IMG/VR virus record: IMGVR_UViG_3300044765_000092
Location: 62,001 to 126,000 of that record
Strand: one strand, 5' to 3'
DNA from: a virus
Length of the DNA: 64,000 bases
Part shown: piece by piece, positions 1,262 through 14,978 of the stretch
Position numbering within the stretch: the stretch's first letter is position 1
Layout of the letters: the number at the start of each line of letters is the position of its first letter
The notes under the pieces: model-generated
What the model saw: only the letters and a program-made list of their open reading frames with translations
Told to the model about the DNA's origin: nothing
The model's database searches: none
Made by a program: the position numbers and the translations under genes

Positions 1262-1628
1262 TCCACCCAGACTCGAGACCCTGAACGATCACACCGTTTG
1301 TGTACTGCAGATAGTTGCCTGGGGCGCCAGACGCCGAGCTCCATTGGACACCAGGAATTGCTTGGTTCACGTCCATGTACTCGGCTTGCCCCTTGTAGTC
1401 GCCAGACACCGCTTGAGCGTGGCTCAGCAAGCACGCCATCATCGCCGGATTCTGCTTGCCTGTGATAATCTTGTCGGGCGTCCACAGCTGAACTGGCACA
1501 GTGCCGGCTGTCAGCGTGATGGCCGTTTCAGAACCGTTGAACGTGGTCTCGACCGCCAGCGTGTAGTAGCCGAGAACCTTTTTCGTTTCCACCTCGATGA
1601 TGGGAACGAACTTTTGCTTGTACGACAT
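1248..1628 (-). CDS. Unknown protein, possibly virion-associated
   Basis: A 126-residue protein rich in Thr, Ala, Gly and Val with no charged clusters, no signal peptide and no membrane segment. The composition resembles small beta-rich virion proteins, but no family was recognised. It is the first gene after a 60-base gap that carries a 21-base motif (1655-1675) also found in front of the virion-type gene at 46406. That shared motif is the main reason to suspect late, structural expression. The function is unknown. Confidence 0.6.
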   Translation of the reverse strand: MSYKQKFVPIIEVETKKVLGYYTLAVETTFNGSETAITLTAGTVPVQLWTPDKIITGKQNPAMMACLLSHAQAVSGDYKGQAEYMDVNQAIPGVQWSSASGAPGNYLQYTNGVIVQGLESGWNVTP

Positions 1629-1654
1629 TTGGGTCTCCGTATTTGACCACCAAA

Positions 1655-1675
1655 GATGGTATCAAATTAACCGGA
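1655..1675 (-). promoter_or_regulatory. Candidate phage promoter motif
   Basis: On the minus strand this reads TCCGGTTAATTTGAT, two variable bases, then CATCT. The same 21-base block with only two differing bases occurs at 46445-46465 in front of another minus-strand gene. It ends 27 bases before the start codon at 1628. The core TAATTTGA recurs before other genes. Promoter function is inferred from position and repetition. Confidence 0.45.
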
Positions 1676-1688
1676 GATGCACCTGATG

Positions 1689-1985
1689 TCACTTAGGAGC
1701 GCCATACTTGTCAAACAAGCGCTTCAGCTCAGCACGTTCTTTTGCCTCGATGCTAGCCGACTTTTCTACATGCTCGTAGTACGGGATCCACGTTGACGGA
1801 ATCTTTCCTTGGCGTCCTGCGTTCCACGCCCTGACCTGATTTTCGAGATCAGTTGCACCACCGTCTCCAAACGACCCGTTGTGGGCTGCTGTCTCTCGAC
1901 GATTGGCTGCTTCCTGCAACACCATGTTGGCTGTTGCTTCGAGCAAGGCAGGATCAAAAAACATTCTCGTCTTGTTCATGTTCAT
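1689..1985 (-). CDS. Unknown 98-residue protein
   Basis: The start at 1985 is chosen because its ATG overlaps the Nudix stop as ATGA and is preceded by TTGGAGGG, a good ribosome binding site. A longer open frame to 2024 exists but would run into the Nudix gene without its own site. The protein is mostly helical by composition, with an acidic and Ala-rich middle and a lysine-rich end. No family was recognised. Confidence 0.6.
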   Translation of the reverse strand: MNMNKTRMFFDPALLEATANMVLQEAANRRETAAHNGSFGDGGATDLENQVRAWNAGRQGKIPSTWIPYYEHVEKSASIEAKERAELKRLFDKYGAPK

Positions 1986-3738: not shown

Positions 3739-4439
3739 TTAGTTGCTTTCATTACGAATCGTATGTCGAAGGGTGTGACCCCATGCGTACGAGCTACTAC
3801 ATCGATCTTGGCTTCGCCCTTGGCTTGTATGATATTTACAGCCAGCTTAAGACGCTTGACCTCACGAGTTGTCATTAGCACGCAAATCTCCTCACCGCGA
3901 GGACCCAGTCGTTGTAGCTTAGATCTAACTCGTTCAGCACTCATTTCAGAGCGTAGCCACTTATAGACTAGACGCCCGACTTCTATTTCCGGGTCTACGC
4001 GTTTAGCCTTGTGGATCGCTGTCTGTAGCTGTGACATGCAGCTCTGCTTGAACTTGGACAGGACCTCGGCTACCGGACTGTATGCTTGCCTGCATATCAA
4101 CTTCTCATCCCGATGGGTTTGAGCTTTTCGAACCAAGACTCTCAGTGTTTGCAACGTCAGATTGGTATTTGGCACCAGCTCCAGACCAAGCTCTCGCTGC
4201 AGCACCGTCTCTTGATCAACGACCAAGGCTAGGACTCTGCTCTTGAACCGTTTCTGTGTAGTACACAGTAGAGTACCCGATGCAAAGACGACTGGAGTGA
4301 CAGCCAACACCTGCTGGTCGGCGTTCTGTTTCACAAGCCCCTGGCGATTGACAATACCGTAGGCGCAGCCTAATTGGCTTAATAGGTGAGAGAGTTCCAG
4401 CACCGACAACCAGGGTATGCCGTATGCTTCTACAATCAT
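3735..4439 (-). CDS. Unknown 234-residue protein
   Basis: No family was recognised. The N-terminal half is hydrophobic and beta-like; the C-terminal half is basic and helical, ending in GEAKIDVVARTHGVTPFDIR, which looks like a short helix-turn-helix. It sits directly downstream of the Rad50-type ATPase with a four-base overlap, so a role in the same recombination complex is possible but is only inference from position. Confidence 0.55.
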   Translation of the reverse strand: MIVEAYGIPWLSVLELSHLLSQLGCAYGIVNRQGLVKQNADQQVLAVTPVVFASGTLLCTTQKRFKSRVLALVVDQETVLQRELGLELVPNTNLTLQTLRVLVRKAQTHRDEKLICRQAYSPVAEVLSKFKQSCMSQLQTAIHKAKRVDPEIEVGRLVYKWLRSEMSAERVRSKLQRLGPRGEEICVLMTTREVKRLKLAVNIIQAKGEAKIDVVARTHGVTPFDIRFVMKATK

Positions 4440-6652
4440 TTCGGTCTACCTTCGATTAGTGTGGCCTTTCCTCCACGTTTCACCACTGTGACTATTCGAG
4501 CCCCTGGAACCTCCAGGTCTGGGCGTGGTGTTAGGATTACGATCTTTGGGAACAGCTTGTTGAGCACTGGCAACGCCTTGATGAACGCGTCGAGTGCCGC
4601 TGGACCCAAGTTCGACTCGGGCTCGTCCAAGATCAGGGTATCTATCCGCTTGGTATTCGGCTTGAGTACCACATCGGCGATGACCAGCAGCAGAGTAAAC
4701 ATGCGTTTTTCGGCACCTGATAGTCGCTTGACGTCTGAAGTTAGTCCCATCTTACGATGGACCAGTATGTCTAGCCTCTTGTTGTATCTGAATTCAAACG
4801 TGTACGGTTCAGCGAAGAACAGACGCCTGAACTTGTTGACTTGTTCTTCCAACAATGCTGCGTACCTCTTGATCATGTACTGACGAAGACCTGTTTTGGA
4901 ATACACGTCGGCAAATGCCTTGAGGATAGGTAGGTCCTCGCATTGGGCACTCAGAGTCTTGACCCGCTGCTTTAGGTTCTTTATCTGTGACCGTGCTTCG
5001 CGCTGGTGGACCAACTTTGATTCTACCTGGGCCAGCTCGCTGCTAATGGCTGTCAGCTTTGGCGCCAAGTCTCTGAACTCCTGTGCCTGAGCTTTTTGTT
5101 CTTTGGAGAGGGCCAGCACTTCGCGTATCCTGTTGACCAGTGGTTCGCACTGGCGGAAGCGCTCGATCGACGACCTTAGTTTGTCGCGCTGTTCGTTGAG
5201 TTCTTCTTCTGTATGCTTTGGTTGTTCACCCTCAGGCGCATCAGGCTTACTAGGTATTTGTGCCTTTAGCAAAGATGCCGCTTCTAGATCTTTGATCCGA
5301 CCTTGTTCGTCCACATCACCTAACGCCGCTAGATCCGAAGACAGTGCGTCGTACAGAGCCTGCCATTCTTCACGCTGTCTGATGACAGTGTCCGCCCGCT
5401 CGGCTTCGATCGCCTTGTCGTGCAGGGTGCGCCACTTTGTTAGTTCCTGCTCGATATCCTCGGGTGGTCTATGCTTGGCCGGCGCCCCACACGTAGGGCA
5501 TTTGCCAGTCTTGAACTGCTTGGCGTGGGCTCGTTCTTCAAGCAGCTTCTCGATTTGCACCGAACACTTAACCTTGGAGTATTTGACCTCTATTGGCTTG
5601 ACCTTCTCCACAGTCGATAGTTGTGCCGTCAGTTCATCGAGCTTGGCACCAAGCTCTTCATACTTGCGTTTTGTCGCTTTGGCTGCCGCCAAATGGCGAT
5701 CCACATGCTTGTAGTCGAGCTGACGCTCGGCACAAAAATCCTTGAACCTCCGTGCCGCTTTCTTCCACACTCGGAGCTCGGTGGCGTGCTCGCGCCACTC
5801 ACCAAGCGACGCCAGTTCTGTGTTTACTGACTTGAGAACTTGCCGTTCTTTCCTGTACTGGTCATCGAACTCAAGACCAAAGGCGGCTACGTGTTTGACA
5901 TACCACTTGATGAGGTCACTCTGCGCTTCAGCAAACACCAGTAGCTCAGAGATGCGTTGAGACTCCTGAACCTGGGACGCCAACTTCTTCTGCTTGGCTT
6001 TTAGCTTTGCTGCCCGCTCTTCGAGCTCAGCGTATTCAGTGTCTGACACCACATCGGCGCTTGCCGCATCGTATTGCGCTTTGACCTCAGCTAACACGGC
6101 TGCCGTTCGCTGCATTTCAGCGATCTCGGCCAAAAGCAGCTTACGCACGTGATTGATGTCGTCGAGATTGAACATCCCGACCAGGAAAGCTTCACGTTGG
6201 GCGGCAGTCCCCCGGATCAGCGGGTGTGGGATCGTGCTGTCGATGAAGAAGCGGGTGTAGAACTCCTGCTCGGTCATCCCGAACAGACGTTGCAGCTTCT
6301 CCTTCGAATATGCAATGGTGCGGATGTGCGAGTCACGGTCGTTGCGTTCTATCTTGTACGACTTGCGACTGCCCATCGTCTTGGACACACGATAGCGATT
6401 GCCGTCGTTGACCAATTGTATGCCCAGCACTGACTTGATCTTTGATTTGACCGAGTCTTTACCGCTTGGGCTCTCGTCCAGCACGATCTCTGGAATAGCG
6501 CTGATCAGCGCGCTTTTACCAGCCGCGTTTGTCGATCCAGACGCTGCGTCTTTGTTTAGGCCAAGGATCGTTGTGATCCCTGGCGTAAATCGAAAGTCGA
6601 CCTTGTCGAAGACAACATACCGACGAAGGTGCAGGCTTTCTAGTTGTCTCAT
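4436..6652 (-). CDS. Rad50/SbcC/gp46-type recombination ATPase
   Basis: A 738-residue SMC-like ATPase. The Walker A segment lies near residues 31-50 (TNAAGKSALI, after an unusually long GLNKDAASGS loop). Long coiled-coil arms flank a zinc hook near residue 385 (KCPTCGAPAK). The C-terminal half carries the ABC signature RLSGAEKRMF and Walker B TLILDEPESNLGP. The size and order match phage gp46 and bacterial SbcC. With the Mre11-type nuclease at 8062-9892 it would form the complex that resects double-strand ends for recombination-dependent replication. The two genes are separated by the clamp loader and two small genes on the same strand. Confidence 0.9.
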   Translation of the reverse strand: MRQLESLHLRRYVVFDKVDFRFTPGITTILGLNKDAASGSTNAAGKSALISAIPEIVLDESPSGKDSVKSKIKSVLGIQLVNDGNRYRVSKTMGSRKSYKIERNDRDSHIRTIAYSKEKLQRLFGMTEQEFYTRFFIDSTIPHPLIRGTAAQREAFLVGMFNLDDINHVRKLLLAEIAEMQRTAAVLAEVKAQYDAASADVVSDTEYAELEERAAKLKAKQKKLASQVQESQRISELLVFAEAQSDLIKWYVKHVAAFGLEFDDQYRKERQVLKSVNTELASLGEWREHATELRVWKKAARRFKDFCAERQLDYKHVDRHLAAAKATKRKYEELGAKLDELTAQLSTVEKVKPIEVKYSKVKCSVQIEKLLEERAHAKQFKTGKCPTCGAPAKHRPPEDIEQELTKWRTLHDKAIEAERADTVIRQREEWQALYDALSSDLAALGDVDEQGRIKDLEAASLLKAQIPSKPDAPEGEQPKHTEEELNEQRDKLRSSIERFRQCEPLVNRIREVLALSKEQKAQAQEFRDLAPKLTAISSELAQVESKLVHQREARSQIKNLKQRVKTLSAQCEDLPILKAFADVYSKTGLRQYMIKRYAALLEEQVNKFRRLFFAEPYTFEFRYNKRLDILVHRKMGLTSDVKRLSGAEKRMFTLLLVIADVVLKPNTKRIDTLILDEPESNLGPAALDAFIKALPVLNKLFPKIVILTPRPDLEVPGARIVTVVKRGGKATLIEGRPK

Positions 6653-6807: not shown

Positions 6808-7004
6808 GTGTAGTGCTTTATGGCGATGAACACAAAGTCGATCAGGACGCTGAGACCAATGACCACGGCAATACCCATGTCTTTGTGCTCCGGGGTCTTG
6901 ATCTTGCCGGACCACAGCATGATGAACAGGACCACCATGCCAAAGATAGGCAACGCAGGAGCTGGCCAGTCTAGGAACCAGACTGCGAAATCATGAGCGT
7001 TCAT
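6804..7004 (-). CDS. Small two-helix membrane protein
   Basis: A 66-residue protein with two predicted membrane segments: LPIFGMVVLFIMLW and MGIAVVIGLSVLIDFVFIAI. The short charged linker between them contains KIKTPEHKD. It overlaps the clamp-loader gene upstream and the Cys/His gene downstream by four bases each. Holin or inner-membrane accessory roles are possible, but nothing in the sequence decides between them. Confidence 0.6.
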   Translation of the reverse strand: MNAHDFAVWFLDWPAPALPIFGMVVLFIMLWSGKIKTPEHKDMGIAVVIGLSVLIDFVFIAIKHYT

Positions 7005-8065
7005 TTGACAAGCAACCCCAGAACGAACTGCTGAACAAGCGCAATGTCTGGCACGCCGGAAAACGCACCGATCTGTGCCTTGAGCTGGACTACCCGCTGA
7101 TGAATCGCGCCGATCTTGTTCAGATCCTGCTTACCTACGGCCGATATCAGGTCTCGGTGTGACTGCGACCACCAGACAGCAGAGTGCTTCTCACCTTCGA
7201 GTACAGCAGTGTTTAGCAAGAACGAATTGAGGGTCAACAACTTGGTGGCAAACCCAAAGCCATTGCTGATGTCGAGCGCACAGCGAAGTGCGGCCTTGAG
7301 CTTGCCAGTATAGACGGCTACTAGCGTACGGACCGCCAATTTCTCGTCTGACATATCCGAGTCGGCAATCGCACCCTCAACATCATCGACCGTGACCTTC
7401 CCTCCATTGGTTGCCGCCATCTGGGCCAAACCTTCGAGGATTGTGGCTGCAGTCCGCATCTCGCCCATCGAGTTTTCGACCACTTGAGCAGCAATCTGCT
7501 TGGTCAAGAACGTCATTTGTTCGCCCTTGGCCACGCGCTTGACATACTTGAGGATATTGTCTCGTGACGGCGTTGACAACGCGAACACCGATGTCCGATT
7601 GCGCACCGCCCGATCGATCTTCTCCGGTTCCATCGTGCACAAGATCCACATAGTCTTGGGTGCAGGACGTTCCAATGGCTTGAGCAGCAATTGCTTGGAC
7701 GGTCCGGTCAGTTGCTGCGCTTCGTCGATGATGAACACACGACGAGGAGCCATACGTGGTTGCAGTGCCGCCATCTTCAACAGGTCACGTAGATCGTCGA
7801 TGCCCCGATTGTCTGCCGCATTGATGATGTGGCAATCCATGTGGCCCTCGATCGACTTGATCGGCTTTTCGCGCCCCTTGTTGAACAAGTCGGCTACCAG
7901 AGCCATTGCCAGCGTGGTCTTGCCCACGCTGGTTGGGCCTGTGAACATCAAGGTCGAGGGAATCTTGCCGGTCTGCACAATACCCTTGAGTCGGGCTACC
8001 TGTTTTTCGTGGCCGATCACTCGGTCTAGGGTGCGGGGCTGGTACTTGATGTAGAGGTTGCTCAT
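7001..8065 (-). CDS. AAA+ clamp loader subunit
   Basis: A 354-residue AAA+ ATPase starting SNLYIKYQPRTLDRVIGHE, the classic clamp-loader opening (KYRP..f..viGq). Walker A is GPTSVGKTT at residues 43-51 and Walker B is FIIDEAQQLT near residues 111-120. The sensor 1 region reads WILCTMEPEKID, and the position of the arginine-finger SRC motif is VRNRTSVF, so the Cys is not kept. The C-terminal 150 residues are helical and match the collar domain. It would open and load a sliding clamp for the family A polymerase. No clamp gene was recognised in this window. Confidence 0.88.
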   Translation of the reverse strand: MSNLYIKYQPRTLDRVIGHEKQVARLKGIVQTGKIPSTLMFTGPTSVGKTTLAMALVADLFNKGREKPIKSIEGHMDCHIINAADNRGIDDLRDLLKMAALQPRMAPRRVFIIDEAQQLTGPSKQLLLKPLERPAPKTMWILCTMEPEKIDRAVRNRTSVFALSTPSRDNILKYVKRVAKGEQMTFLTKQIAAQVVENSMGEMRTAATILEGLAQMAATNGGKVTVDDVEGAIADSDMSDEKLAVRTLVAVYTGKLKAALRCALDISNGFGFATKLLTLNSFLLNTAVLEGEKHSAVWWSQSHRDLISAVGKQDLNKIGAIHQRVVQLKAQIGAFSGVPDIALVQQFVLGLLVK

Positions 8066-9892
8066 TTGGACGTTAGTTGTTTGATGCGCTTGAATCCGCG
8101 CTCGATCTGTTCGGGTGTCAGTTTGTGCTTCTGGATCAGCAAGTCTTGGACTACAGCCTGCTGCTCCGACTCATTTACACCAGCCTCGACATCATCGAAC
8201 TCCCACTCCATGGCAATCAGTTCTTTGAGGTCGTTCTTGTCCTTGAATTTGTTGTGGCGGACCACATTGGTGTGCGTGGTCAGTATGTCGTTGATGTCCA
8301 GGTCTAGTCCATCGATGACAAACAGCTTGTAGAGCTTGCGTGGATCCTCGTCGATACTGTCGAGATCGGACTCACGTTCGACTGTCAAGTTGATGAGTTC
8401 CCACGGCGGCTTGAACGGAATGTTCTGAACCTCTAGGTGTCCGTCTTCCCACTTGCAGTGGTGGAAAAACTTGGGCATCGATTCGCCAAAGGTGGTCTGA
8501 TAAAGTGTACCACTGTACCATGTGTTACGGACCCAATGACAGGTATGGAGATGCCCCATAACTGTATGGTGCTTGGTCCGGATCTCAGAGTCACGTTCTT
8601 CGATCTTACGCCCATTATCTCGAACGGCACCTGCGACTTCAAAGTGTCCGACATTGAGAGCCTCTTTCTTGGTCTTGACATGAGGGTACGGCATCAGGTG
8701 GAATGGTTCACCTTCCAGCTCGATGTCACAGCGATTGGTATGAATGGACAGCGATGGATGCAGGTGCTTACCCACATGCTCTAGCACCTGAAGACTATGC
8801 GTGCCGTCCTCAGCAAAATCGTGATTCGAAATGTTCAGCCCGTTTCGCTACGACGGGCCCGCCTTTCGGCTGCTGCATGTCACCATGCAGACCAGACTAT
8901 ATCACCCTCCAAGTTGGAGGCTCTCCATTTCGAGCGCCAATAGCTTGCGCCCTACGTCTTTCGACTAGTCGTTGCACCTTACTCAACTCGCACGCGGTTT
9001 CCACAAATGTTTCCAAGTACGCTCCGTCCATACGTTAATGACAGAGGTCTCGGTCACGTCATGCAGCGCAGCAATCTGTCTAGCCGCATCTCTGCGTGCA
9101 AAATTCCGACTGCCGTCTGTTGTAGAGCCAGGGTCTAGCTTCTTGATCCTGCGTACATCCCTTTCAGTCAGTACTGAACGACCATTGCTTTCACCCACAA
9201 CGTCAAGCAACTTAGTACGATGTGCATGCGCAGCGTTTCCCGCTCGTGTGACGTACTCAAGATTCTTGACCTTGTTATTGTGCTTGTTACCATCGATGTG
9301 GTTCACATGACGTGAGCGCTGCGGCCCAATGAACAGATTTGCAACTGCTCTATGGATAGCGACACTATACGTCTTAGTGCCTCGACCAAGACCTCGCCCA
9401 CCGGCATGAATCTTGACTTTTCGGCACGCTATTAGATAACCGTTATGAACTCTCATGTGCGTGTATCCACGGACACCGCCCTTATCAGAGAATTCCACAC
9501 CGGACTTCTTGTGAAGTTTCCACATAATCACCACCTTTCTATCAGGCGGCGAGTCGAGTCTTGGCTCAGGATTGTCTCTTGCGAGAGTTCCCCTGAATTA
9601 GAAGAGTTTGCTTGCCGCATTACTACGACAAGGGGCTAATTCAACCCAGTATGAATCGGATGTCTAGCTCGCGGTATTTCTTTCTCGTCAGTGCTCGGTA
9701 CAGCGCGATCTGCGCACCGTACGAGAGCCTCGGCTTTTCGGCCACGTCTCCATATTGAATGACAGTCTTGACCCCATGTTCCAACGCGTAGTCGAAGACC
9801 CTGCACATGGACTGTGCGATCAACGTACTGGCCTCCGGGATCAGGCTGTCTAGCTTATCGAAGTGGAGATCTCCAAACCCAACAAAGTCCAT
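8062..9892 (-). CDS. Mre11/SbcD/gp47-type nuclease, split by a group I intron
   Basis: The coding sequence is join(9892-9644, 8826-8062) on the minus strand, 337 residues. Exon 1 holds metallophosphatase motifs DLHFDK and YGDVAEK and stops at ILG, right before an in-frame TGA. Exon 2 resumes with NHDFAEDG, completing the GNHD motif; GHF and the GHLH motif follow (residues about 143-177). Both exons are exact multiples of three bases. Reading exon 2 alone from the ATG at 8787 would give a protein without its metal ligands. With Rad50 (4436-6652) it would process DNA ends. Exact splice sites come from motif continuity and group I rules. Confidence 0.88.
8827..9643 (-). mobile_element. Group I intron in the Mre11-type gene
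   Basis: The intron is 817 bases long. The 5' exon ends GGGT and the intron contains GCCC seven bases later, giving a P1 helix with the required U-G wobble at the splice site. The last intron base is G at 8827. Conserved core pieces are present on the minus strand: AATCCTGAGCC (9573-9563, the Q element), TGCAACGACTAGTCG (8976-8962, R) and GATATAGTCTGG (8903-8892, S). GACTA in R pairs with TAGTC in S to form P7. The insertion lies between Gly and Asn of the catalytic GNHD motif. Confidence 0.87.
8983..9525 (-). CDS. HNH homing endonuclease encoded in the intron
   Basis: A 180-residue protein. Start 9525 is chosen because AGAAAGGTGG precedes its ATG; the in-frame GTG at 9534 would lie inside that site. 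The HNH core reads HRAVANLFIGPQRS, then HVNHIDGNKHNNKVKNLEYV, then NAAHAHRT, as in I-HmuI-like phage enzymes. The C-terminal part contains VLTERDVRRIKKLDPG and ARQIAALHDVTETSVINVW, which looks like a NUMOD-type helix-turn-helix for target recognition. It lies wholly inside the intron and should cut intronless alleles of the Mre11 gene to spread the intron. Confidence 0.87.
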   Translation of the reverse strand: MWKLHKKSGVEFSDKGGVRGYTHMRVHNGYLIACRKVKIHAGGRGLGRGTKTYSVAIHRAVANLFIGPQRSRHVNHIDGNKHNNKVKNLEYVTRAGNAAHAHRTKLLDVVGESNGRSVLTERDVRRIKKLDPGSTTDGSRNFARRDAARQIAALHDVTETSVINVWTERTWKHLWKPRAS

Positions 9893-9895
9893 CCA

Positions 9896-10543
9896 TCAAC
9901 CCTTATCCGTGTATCGGCCAGTCCAATTCTTGTGGTGTGGACGGTGCCCGGAGCACACTATGTGCATACATCCCTGATGGAGTCCATGTTCATCGCAGAA
10001 CTCCTTAAGATTCCTACCTGAATAGGTTTGACCATCTGGTGACTTCACTTTGAACAATCGACTCTGGCGCTCAGCTTTCTTTGCGATATACTCGTGAGTA
10101 CGTTTGTTGCGATTGCGATATTCTTCCGCCATTGCTGCCATAGCTGGTCGCGTATCTTTGTTGTAATCTGCACGCTTCTCAATAGACCGCTCACGACCAC
10201 CGTTTGAGACCCATTCTTCGTAGTTCTGTTCAAACGTTATGAAGCGACAGTTTCCCACTTCGTAGTCTCCATTATCACCTATGCGTCCTAGCTGATACTT
10301 CCCGGGGCGGTTTCCTATCTGATTGGGTGAAGTCAAGCCAGCTCTTAACGCCAGCTTTAGGTATTGCTGAAACGACAGCTTAAGATCGCCACGATCTTCG
10401 TGCTTGGAGTTTCGCCTCAACGTGAGGTACTTGCTGTACCATAGCTCGGCTAGTCTGTTTGAAAAGCCCGCAGACTTGGCAAACTCTATTGCGGCTTCGC
10501 GGCGTTTGCGAGCCTTCTTCCTGTCAAAGACGCCCTTTGGCAT
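9896..10543 (-). CDS. Free-standing HNH-type homing endonuclease
   Basis: A 215-residue basic protein. The core reads YQLGRIGDNGDYEVGNCRF then ITFEQN, a common shape for phage HNH-like endonucleases (GRIDN.GNY..GNCRW). The C-terminal part, SPDGQTYSGRNLKEFCDEHG, resembles the NUMOD1/IENR repeat used for DNA binding. Start 10543 is the first ATG; an in-frame GTG at 10576 would extend it by 11 residues and overlap nothing. Its stop lies four bases from the Mre11-type start, so it is wedged between two genes without breaking either. It may target a site in the neighbouring region. Confidence 0.72.
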   Translation of the reverse strand: MPKGVFDRKKARKRREAAIEFAKSAGFSNRLAELWYSKYLTLRRNSKHEDRGDLKLSFQQYLKLALRAGLTSPNQIGNRPGKYQLGRIGDNGDYEVGNCRFITFEQNYEEWVSNGGRERSIEKRADYNKDTRPAMAAMAEEYRNRNKRTHEYIAKKAERQSRLFKVKSPDGQTYSGRNLKEFCDEHGLHQGCMHIVCSGHRPHHKNWTGRYTDKG

Positions 10544-10576
10544 TTGTATCACCAACGAACTCGATTTTGTCCTCAC

Positions 10577-11122
10577 TCAGATGTCGGTACTGACTATCGT
10601 ACATTCACACCCAACGGACGGTGAGAATGTTCCAGCGGCCATGATCGCGTGCTTCAACGCTTTCACGTACTCATCGGCGTTACCGTTTTTGAATGCAGTA
10701 TTGACTGACGTGTGTAGCGAGCCCAACGCATACTCGTAACCAGAGCCACAAGCGTCATAGCCCTTGACTGACCGTAGGACCGAGAAGTCGTCTTGCATTT
10801 GCCACAGTTGACCACGCACGCCTATCAAGCAAGTTCCGCCCTTTTCATAGTCGGCGTCTTTGAGGGTCTTCTTGATGTCTCGCACAAAGACTGAGATCAA
10901 CCACCTATAAACCTCGTCTTCCTCTTTGGGAATAACGGGGTCCGGTAGCCCGTGTTCAAGCAGTTGTCCGAACCTGTAGCTCGTGGTGTACCCGACCACG
11001 AGTCCGTTCTTTTTGAAGACCTTGGGTTGGGTGTGGACTACCTTATTGTTCCAACCCGTACCCTGCAGATCACCTGCAAGATACACACGTCCACTGTGCT
11101 CGATTCCTACGATACAGGTCAT
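10577..11122 (-). CDS. Proteasome/HslV-like Ntn hydrolase (first of two)
   Basis: A 181-residue protein starting at ATG 11122 with MTCIVGIEHSGRVYLAGD. After removal of the Met, Thr1, Asp17 and Lys33 fall exactly at the catalytic positions used by HslV and proteasome beta subunits. A glycine-rich strand (LVVGYTTSYRFGQLLE) follows, as does YDACGSGYEYALGSL, similar to the conserved SGS region. The longer frame to 11191 is rejected because it overlaps the next gene and would bury the Thr. A peptidase or amidase activity is inferred from these residues. A second, distinct member lies at 36293-36712. Confidence 0.7.
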   Translation of the reverse strand: MTCIVGIEHSGRVYLAGDLQGTGWNNKVVHTQPKVFKKNGLVVGYTTSYRFGQLLEHGLPDPVIPKEEDEVYRWLISVFVRDIKKTLKDADYEKGGTCLIGVRGQLWQMQDDFSVLRSVKGYDACGSGYEYALGSLHTSVNTAFKNGNADEYVKALKHAIMAAGTFSPSVGCECTIVSTDI

Positions 11123-11132
11123 TACCTGGCCC

Positions 11133-11399
11133 TCAGGCTGTTTGTGTGAGACGAATAACCACCGAAGGTCCGTTTGTGACGACAATAGCAACCTTTGAGC
11201 TACCCTGCCGATGGATCACATGGACGTGGGCAGACTCCAAAGGATGGACCTCAACAAAGTGCGCCAGTGACTTGACGATGTAGGTATCTATTTGCTGTAT
11301 TTCTACTGACTCAGGTGGGTGAAATCCAGTGTTCAACATGTCTCGCACGTAGAACGTATCGGTCTCGGTCAAATAGCTGTGAGTGATTCGCATGTTCAT
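11133..11399 (-). CDS. Unknown 88-residue protein
   Basis: The ATG at 11399 overlaps the stop of the upstream mini-gene as ATGA, which supports this start; another ATG lies two codons in. The sequence contains HVHVIHRQGSSKVAIVVTNG, suggesting a small alpha-beta fold. It lies 10 bases upstream of the Ntn hydrolase start and is probably co-translated. No family was recognised. Confidence 0.55.
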   Translation of the reverse strand: MNMRITHSYLTETDTFYVRDMLNTGFHPPESVEIQQIDTYIVKSLAHFVEVHPLESAHVHVIHRQGSSKVAIVVTNGPSVVIRLTQTA

Positions 11400-13508: not shown

Positions 13509-14978
13509 TTAGAACGGAACATCGTCGTCATCATCGTCATCATCGTCGTCGGAGCGCTTCTTTCCGCCCTTCTTGGCCGACTTTGCGACAGGCTTGGAAC
13601 CCTTCTTGCCACTCTTGGCAGGCGGTTCATCCTCGTCGTCGTCCTCGTCGTCATCCTCATCGAGGTCGTCATCGTCCTCGTCATCGACGGGTTTGGATTT
13701 GCCTTTCTTCGCCGTGGGCTGCTGCTTGGCCTTTCCTTTGTTGCCCTTTTTCGGTGGAGGATCGTCGTCTTCCTCGTCATCGTCTTCGTCGAGATCGTCG
13801 TCATCCTCATCTTCGTCCTCGTCGTCCTCGTCTACGACGCGTGAACTCTTCTTGGCTGGAGGTTTTGCCTTACCCTTCTTGACACCCTTAACTGGAGGCT
13901 CGTCCTCGTCATCGTCGTCCTCATCGAGATCATCGTCATCGAGATCGTCGTCCTCATCCTCATCCTCGTCTTCGTCGACGGGCTTTTTCTTTCCGCCCTT
14001 CTTTGGTGCTGGCTCGTCATCCTCGTCTTCGTCGAGGTCGTCGTCATCGAGGTCGTCATCGTCCTCGTCATCGTCGTCGACTGGTTTCTTACCCTTCTTG
14101 GCGGTAGTCGCGGCCTTGCCCTTCTTACCCTTGGGTGCCGCCTCATCGTCCTCGTCATCGTCGAGGTCGTCGTCTTCATCCTCGTCTTTGCGGCCCTTGC
14201 CTTTCTTCTTGTTGGAGCCGCTTTCGTCGCCGTCCTCGTTACGCTTGGCCCACGATTCGAACTCGCGTTGTGCGTCCTTGAGCTTCAGCGGGGTCAGCAG
14301 CTTTTCGATATTCCACAGCAGGTAGTCCTGCTCTTCTTCAGTCAGCGGGCTCTTGTCTGCCTTCTGCACCGTGTACTTCTTGGACGCCACCTTTTCGTTC
14401 GGGTCGTACATGATGTTCACGTCACAACCAAAACGCTCGTCCGACAACGGGTAAGCCTTTTGCTCACCAGTCTTCTTGCTCTTGTGGCGGTTCAGGCTAC
14501 CGAGCTTCTTCAGCTCACGAACCAGACTCTGAGTCAAACGGACAACACGCACAGGTGTCCACGCCTTGCTGCCCTTTTTCTTGAAGCCAGACTCTTCTTC
14601 GTCTGGAGTTGGCTTACCCTTCTTGGCTGGTTCGTCTTCTTGAACCGAGCGAATGATGGCATTGACGTAGAAGTCCTTGCTGGAACGGATCTTCTCGGAC
14701 TCGGCCTCGCACCACGGACATTCCTTGGTGCTGTCAATCTCTTCGGTTTCCTGATCAAAGGCCAAGCACGTGACCGGGAATTGGGTTGTGCCCCCGGCCT
14801 TTTTCTTGGTCGTCACCCAATGGCGACCGTAGGCCACGATCGGGCCAACAAATCGCATCTGCACCCATTCGTTGGCTGGGAACGTTGCCATGTCCACGAT
14901 GTCTTCGACTCGTGGCTCTTTGTCCGCAGATACCTTTGCATCCTCAAAGGTACGGTTGCTCTTAAATTTTGCTTTCAC
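13509..14978 (-). CDS. Single-stranded DNA-binding protein with long charged tail
   Basis: A 489-residue protein started by GTG 14978 with GGAG ten bases before. Residues 1-250 hold the likely ssDNA-binding core, with a CPWCEAE motif near residue 84 that may be half of a zinc site as in T4 gp32. Residues 255-480 are a low-complexity tail alternating acidic runs (DDDEDDDDLDDDDL) with basic KKGKK and KPV blocks, about seven cycles. The final residues, DDDDDDVPF, match the SSB acidic tip (DDDIPF) that recruits partner proteins. It lies next to the recombinase, as expected for a recombination mediator. The tail is far longer than in known SSBs. Confidence 0.78.
   Translation of the reverse strand: MKAKFKSNRTFEDAKVSADKEPRVEDIVDMATFPANEWVQMRFVGPIVAYGRHWVTTKKKAGGTTQFPVTCLAFDQETEEIDSTKECPWCEAESEKIRSSKDFYVNAIIRSVQEDEPAKKGKPTPDEEESGFKKKGSKAWTPVRVVRLTQSLVRELKKLGSLNRHKSKKTGEQKAYPLSDERFGCDVNIMYDPNEKVASKKYTVQKADKSPLTEEEQDYLLWNIEKLLTPLKLKDAQREFESWAKRNEDGDESGSNKKKGKGRKDEDEDDDLDDDEDDEAAPKGKKGKAATTAKKGKKPVDDDDEDDDDLDDDDLDEDEDDEPAPKKGGKKKPVDEDEDEDEDDDLDDDDLDEDDDDEDEPPVKGVKKGKAKPPAKKSSRVVDEDDEDEDEDDDDLDEDDDEEDDDPPPKKGNKGKAKQQPTAKKGKSKPVDDEDDDDLDEDDDEDDDEDEPPAKSGKKGSKPVAKSAKKGGKKRSDDDDDDDDDDVPF

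Follow-up and report, generated by a model that had tools for sequence, protein, structure and literature searches.

A putatively mobile subgroup IA group I intron with an HNH endonuclease gene interrupts the catalytic GNHD motif of mre11 in a tailed phage of about 238 kb

In this study, we analysed a window of 64,000 nucleotides (positions 62001-126000 of the 238,018-base virus record IMGVR_UViG_3300044765_000092), in which an mre11 gene is divided by an insert that we identify as a group I intron. The locus is composed as follows.

4436..6652, minus strand: Rad50/SbcC/gp46-like partner of Mre11 (AAA_23/SMC_N matches; synteny)
7001..8065, minus strand: clamp-loader AAA+ gene, the conserved downstream neighbour (Pfam DNA_pol3_delta2, 1.9e-19; synteny)
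8062..8826, minus strand: mre11 exon 2, 254 codons plus stop, starting AAT CAC GAT (N84-H85-D86)
8827..9643, minus strand: group I intron of 817 nt, beginning TGAATTAGCCCC and ending GAACATTTCG, terminal G at 8827
8983..9525, minus strand: intron-encoded HNH endonuclease, predicted to act in homing, 180 aa from ATG, in the P6 loop, with ribosome-binding site AAGGTGG
9644..9892, minus strand: mre11 (SbcD/gp47-like) exon 1, 83 codons ending ATA CTG GGT (I-L-G)
9896..10576, minus strand: free-standing HNH-like endonuclease gene (PHROG 2081 HNH endonuclease, 5.9e-16)

Joined, the two exons (9892-9644 and 8826-8062, minus strand) give 337 codons free of stops, which read RFILG-NHDFAEDG through the exon-exon junction ATACTGGGT|AATCACGAT. 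This bears out the uninterrupted ILG-NHDFAEDG motif of the preliminary description, and the splice junctions that it placed at 9644|9643 and 8827|8826 are, as read from the sequence, correct to the base. Unspliced exon 1 halts immediately at GGT TGA as an 83-aa ORF, and the exon 2 frame 5' of NHD extends seven codons back to a TAG with no ATG, GTG or TTG on the way; a GTG at 8787 opens an exon 2 ORF, and NHD lies outside it. The spliced protein matches the SbcD-like nuclease family PHROG 100 with E=7.4e-22, while the exon parts taken singly match far more weakly (3.5e-4 and 8.8e-11). The metallophosphoesterase motifs D-x-H, GD, GNHD, H and GHxH are all present in it, and D8, H10, D49 and G83 in exon 1 together with N84, H85, H144, H175 and H177 in exon 2 show no variation across seven aligned relatives, whose profile aligns with the solved Mre11 structure 1ii7 over the first ~100 residues including GNHD. 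Identity to an uninterrupted gene in IMGVR_UViG_3300037042_002125 (relative L002) is 53% over residues 1-334, being 60% for exon 1 and 53% for exon 2. These matches support the assignment of the predicted spliced product to the Mre11/SbcD/gp47-type nucleases. The earlier claim that the protein read from exon 2 by itself has no metal ligands stands only in part: D8, H10, D49, N84 and H85 are indeed absent, and with them the first three motifs (N84 and H85 when reading starts from the GTG at 8787), but the conserved H144, H175 and H177 are kept.

The helices assigned to the insert are listed below, with the evidence for each.

9633..9647, minus strand: P1, in which GGGU of the exon (9647-9644) pairs with GCCC of the intron (9636-9633), the pair U9644.G9636 at the 5' splice site being a wobble (sequence, fold; GGGT junction also in phi18-2 nrdE and T4 td)
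9611..9632, minus strand: P2 hairpin (fold)
9601..9606, minus strand: P3 5' strand CUCUUC, pairing with 3' strand GGAGAG at 8926-8921 (Rfam alignment)
9563..9597, minus strand: P4/P5 helix (Rfam alignment, fold)
8966..8970, minus strand: P7 5' strand GACUA, pairing with 3' strand UAGUC at 8899-8895 (invariant in 11/11 introns)
8932..8965, minus strand: P7.1 (8965-8956) and P7.2 (8952-8932) (covariation; typical of subgroup IA)
8906..8920, minus strand: P8 (covariation)
8838..8890, minus strand: P9 (8890-8873), P9.1 (8870-8861) and P9.2 (8858-8838) (covariation)

Rfam model RF00028 matches 9652-8873 (minus strand) over its full length (1-253) with E=4e-7 and 35.4 bits. Because this falls below the gathering score of 50, a default Rfam scan returns nothing, and the intron is seen only in a permissive scan, where it is the sole match in the whole window (E=2.3e-5). 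The alignment loops out 578 nt in P6, which is the site of the HNH gene. The 238,018-base record contains the insert once, and a second group I intron was not detected in it. P1, P7 and the terminal G, described at the outset as visible, were all found (GGGU/GCCC, GACUA/UAGUC and G8827), while P10 is short at best (AAU with AUU, 3 bp, by reading of the sequence). In the RNA fold proposed there as a check, the P1, P2 and P4/P5 helices formed; the folding energy is unremarkable, minimum free energy alone not being significant (z -1.7 and -1.05).

Covariation was examined in the 3' half of this intron and ten other phage introns (11 rows). The pairs of P7, P7.1, P7.2, P8, P9, P9.1 and P9.2 are formed in 92.9% of cells, and 21 of the 35 pairs show changes on both sides against a shuffled mean of 12.7. 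None of 500 shuffles attained the pairing or the number of double changes seen, this test being somewhat inflated by related rows. When partners were slid by 1-3 columns, a control that keeps the relatedness, pairing fell to 37-43%. P7 is invariant, and P7.1, P7.2, P8, P9 and P9.2 covary across the 11 phage introns. Together with the full-length RF00028 match, these results support a group I intron with a conserved P3-P8 core and a predicted guanosine site in P7, and the presence of P7.1 and P7.2, along with sequence similarity to td, nrdB and bnrdE, supports its placement in subgroup IA (T4/SPbeta type). The central proposal of the preliminary description, a group I intron at the Gly/Asn step of the Mre11 GNHD motif, is thus upheld by the in-frame junction, the RF00028 match, the covariation and the alignment with an intron of Bacillus phage phi18-2 described below.

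The nearest intron found lies in nrdE of phage phi18-2. Its alignment with the present intron starts at intron position 1 (80% over 61 columns) and resumes over 8980 to 8844 (77% over 137 bases). It shares the 5' junction GGGT|TGAATT (ATGGGT|TGAATT in phi18-2), and likewise has an HNH gene inside. On the other hand, the host gene of the phi18-2 intron and of the SPbeta bnrdE intron is ribonucleotide reductase, whereas here it is mre11, and the 3' ends of both are unlike this intron beyond P9.2. The T-even introns offer further likenesses. The exon of T4 td also ends in GGGT (junction TTGGGT|TAATT), and the 3' half of the T-even nrdB intron is 76% identical, with the GAACAT..G end common to both; the RB3 nrdB intron also encodes an HNH enzyme. 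However, td and nrdB (I-TevI, I-TevIII) are different host genes, and the td enzyme is of the GIY-YIG type. The 3' half aligns as well with the RB3 nrdB and SPbeta bnrdE introns, and with introns that other phages carry in polymerase and terminase genes. When viral contigs were scanned for GGGTTGAATTNGCCCC, 40 loci came up, only three of them with the intron core (nrdE-type introns); the others look like chance. Megablast to phages found nothing beyond a match of 36 bp, which falls outside any annotation in phiKZ-like phages: at 2001-2036 of locus L004 (phiKZ 65587-65622), in the gap between PHIKZ073 and PHIKZ072.1, the P7-P9 core of the intron is matched at 97%, possibly marking an unannotated intron or a remnant. 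Separately, a group I ribozyme-like sequence of ~400 nt (RF00028, 43.8 bits, E 3.9e-9) was seen at 1501-1898, minus strand, of locus L016 (77198-77595 of the record that holds L002); it lies between ORFs with its 3' end adjoining the ATG of a 114-aa ORF, and has no endonuclease gene inside and no evident coding exon upstream.

That the intron contains an HNH gene, as first noted, was confirmed at 9525-8983 by Pfam HNH_3 (4.4e-8, 33.1 bits over a cut-off of 24.8) and by PHROG 59 HNH endonuclease (2e-24). The SPO1 intron endonuclease I-HmuI (PDB 1u3e) matches at 6e-4, the HNH core residues and their spacing aligning, while the overall similarity is weak and the target gene different. Relatives of the protein are widespread at ~30-40% identity. 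The phi18-2 enzyme is 40% identical over 66% only, and since the two enzymes are not close, intron and enzyme have probably been reshuffled, as far as these comparisons indicate. The free-standing HNH-like gene at 9896..10576 has its stop codon 3 bp ahead of the mre11 ATG, and no match to it was found upstream of mre11 in L002 and L026-L028; it is possibly a second mobile gene at the locus and a collaborative-homing partner.

A Mre11 profile scan of viral contigs gave 28 loci, all of them uninterrupted through GNHD, and the motif is read straight through in six of six GenBank relatives; no intron in this gene was present among these relatives. All 60 GenBank phage records sampled in a spread from 1,205 matching ones match across the site in one piece, and a scan of genome contigs with the same profile found no relative. 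The intronless relatives that had been proposed as a check therefore exist, and they encode one continuous Mre11 protein, not the two separate proteins that had been named as speaking against an intron. The order recA, mre11, clamp loader, rad50 is kept where flanks are present (L002, L026, L029, L030 and L032). Since the relatives examined have a continuous mre11 and the gene order is kept, the insertion would most simply be a gain in this lineage. No near alleles of the same phage lineage, with or without the intron, were found, the known intronless relatives being at most 53% identical.

Some neighbouring genes deserve mention in their own right. In L029 (104-2494), what looks like an intein, inserted in frame, interrupts the recA-like gene beside mre11; it follows MVMFG and ends VVHN|SPEYEP. 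The recA-like ORF opens with a sequence that resembles the end of another intein (GIVTHN|SASPEYY). Upstream of the recA-like gene of the window, at 13509-14978 (minus strand), lies a 489-aa protein with a long repetitive Asp/Glu/Lys-rich C-terminal tail, perhaps a single-stranded DNA-binding protein. A 204-aa protein at 10577-11191 (minus strand) has no convincing family match and starts MTCIVGIEHSGRVYLAGDLQG, a start that we take to look like that of a proteasome-type hydrolase.

Could the intron instead be degenerate and no longer splice, the gene parts being expressed as separate fragments or the gene being dead? The RF00028 score under gathering and the exon 2 ORF with its GTG start would fit such a state, but nothing is broken in the core helices, in P7, in the wobble of P1 or at the terminal G. 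Neither exon contains a stop, and the two are conserved to a similar degree in comparison with L002; the HNH ORF, too, is undamaged and has a good ribosome-binding site. As for separate fragments, the exon 2 ORF cannot include NHD for want of a start codon after the TAG, and exon 1 alone is without N84 and H85; a split gene was dropped for the former reason, and we regard a non-splicing intron as quite improbable.

It is hardly conceivable that we are dealing with an HNH gene standing by itself or with an insertion of the intein type, even though an HNH gene is present and the relative L029 has an apparent intein in the neighbouring recA: the frames are closed, TGA being the first intron codon and TAG standing in the exon 2 frame, the insert is without intein ends, and its parts outside the HNH ORF align with phage group I introns that have been characterised. 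An intein was dropped on the closed frames. The viral record is metagenome-derived and the insert single-copy, as might be expected if the intron of another phage had been misjoined into the contig; yet both junctions are base-precise and in frame, P1 is formed with mre11 exon bases, and nothing similar occurs elsewhere in the 238-kb record. An assembly chimera was dropped on the precise in-frame junctions and appears exceedingly improbable.

Thus it is very probable that a mobile subgroup IA group I intron interrupts mre11 of this ~238-kb tailed phage, an intron predicted to splice and to home by means of its HNH enzyme. The sequences show the restored frame, the fold (through homology and covariation), the HNH domain and the intronless relatives, and from there splicing, cutting and homing are inferred. 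Group I intron RNA is expected to splice with guanosine. With the intron placed between the G83 and N84 codons of the catalytic GNHD motif, the pre-mRNA would fold into P1-P9, exogenous guanosine would attack after U9644, and the exons would be ligated after G8827, which would give back the complete nuclease. Encoded in the P6 loop, the HNH protein probably cuts, or only nicks, the intronless mre11 of co-infecting relatives near the GNHD codons, and recombination would then copy the intron in, with phage gp46/47-type nucleases themselves as candidates for this recombination. According to a review, active-site codons are favoured by such elements since no loss other than a precise one is tolerated, and gp46/gp47 are listed there among possible contributors to T4 homing (PMC2988022). 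In the jumbo phage PhiPA3, the gp210 intron, likewise a group I intron coupled to an HNH enzyme, lies beside conserved residues of an essential gene, and experiments showed that the allele without the intron is nicked in a co-infecting phage (PMC11620839); its host gene is RNA polymerase beta, and the function established by experiment there would apply to the mre11 intron by analogy. Mre11, with Rad50 nearby, is a candidate processor of the breaks made in homing, and a second HNH gene lies 3 bp upstream; splicing efficiency could set the amount of the recombination nuclease and so feed back on homing, or the HNH enzymes could be weapons against the repair nuclease of intronless competitors, though we consider either idea speculative and rather unlikely.

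It is well known that phage genes of DNA metabolism can carry, at conserved sites, group I introns with HNH genes. The open-access literature searched yielded no report of a group I intron in gp47, sbcD or mre11, an absence that is not proof, and the present case appears to be a known kind of element in a new host gene. In some huge phages, essential genes frequently contain group I introns (PMC12363816). Our results would extend the host genes of such phage introns to a nuclease of recombination and repair, Mre11/gp47, with the insertion exactly at its active-site codons. They also indicate that an intron of this sort, with a homing gene inside it, escapes the curated Rfam cut-off, and therefore such genes will be annotated as two fragments. 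Finally, the GGGT junction common to nrdE, td and mre11 may provide a concrete case of one intron lineage reaching unrelated genes with the same short P1 target.
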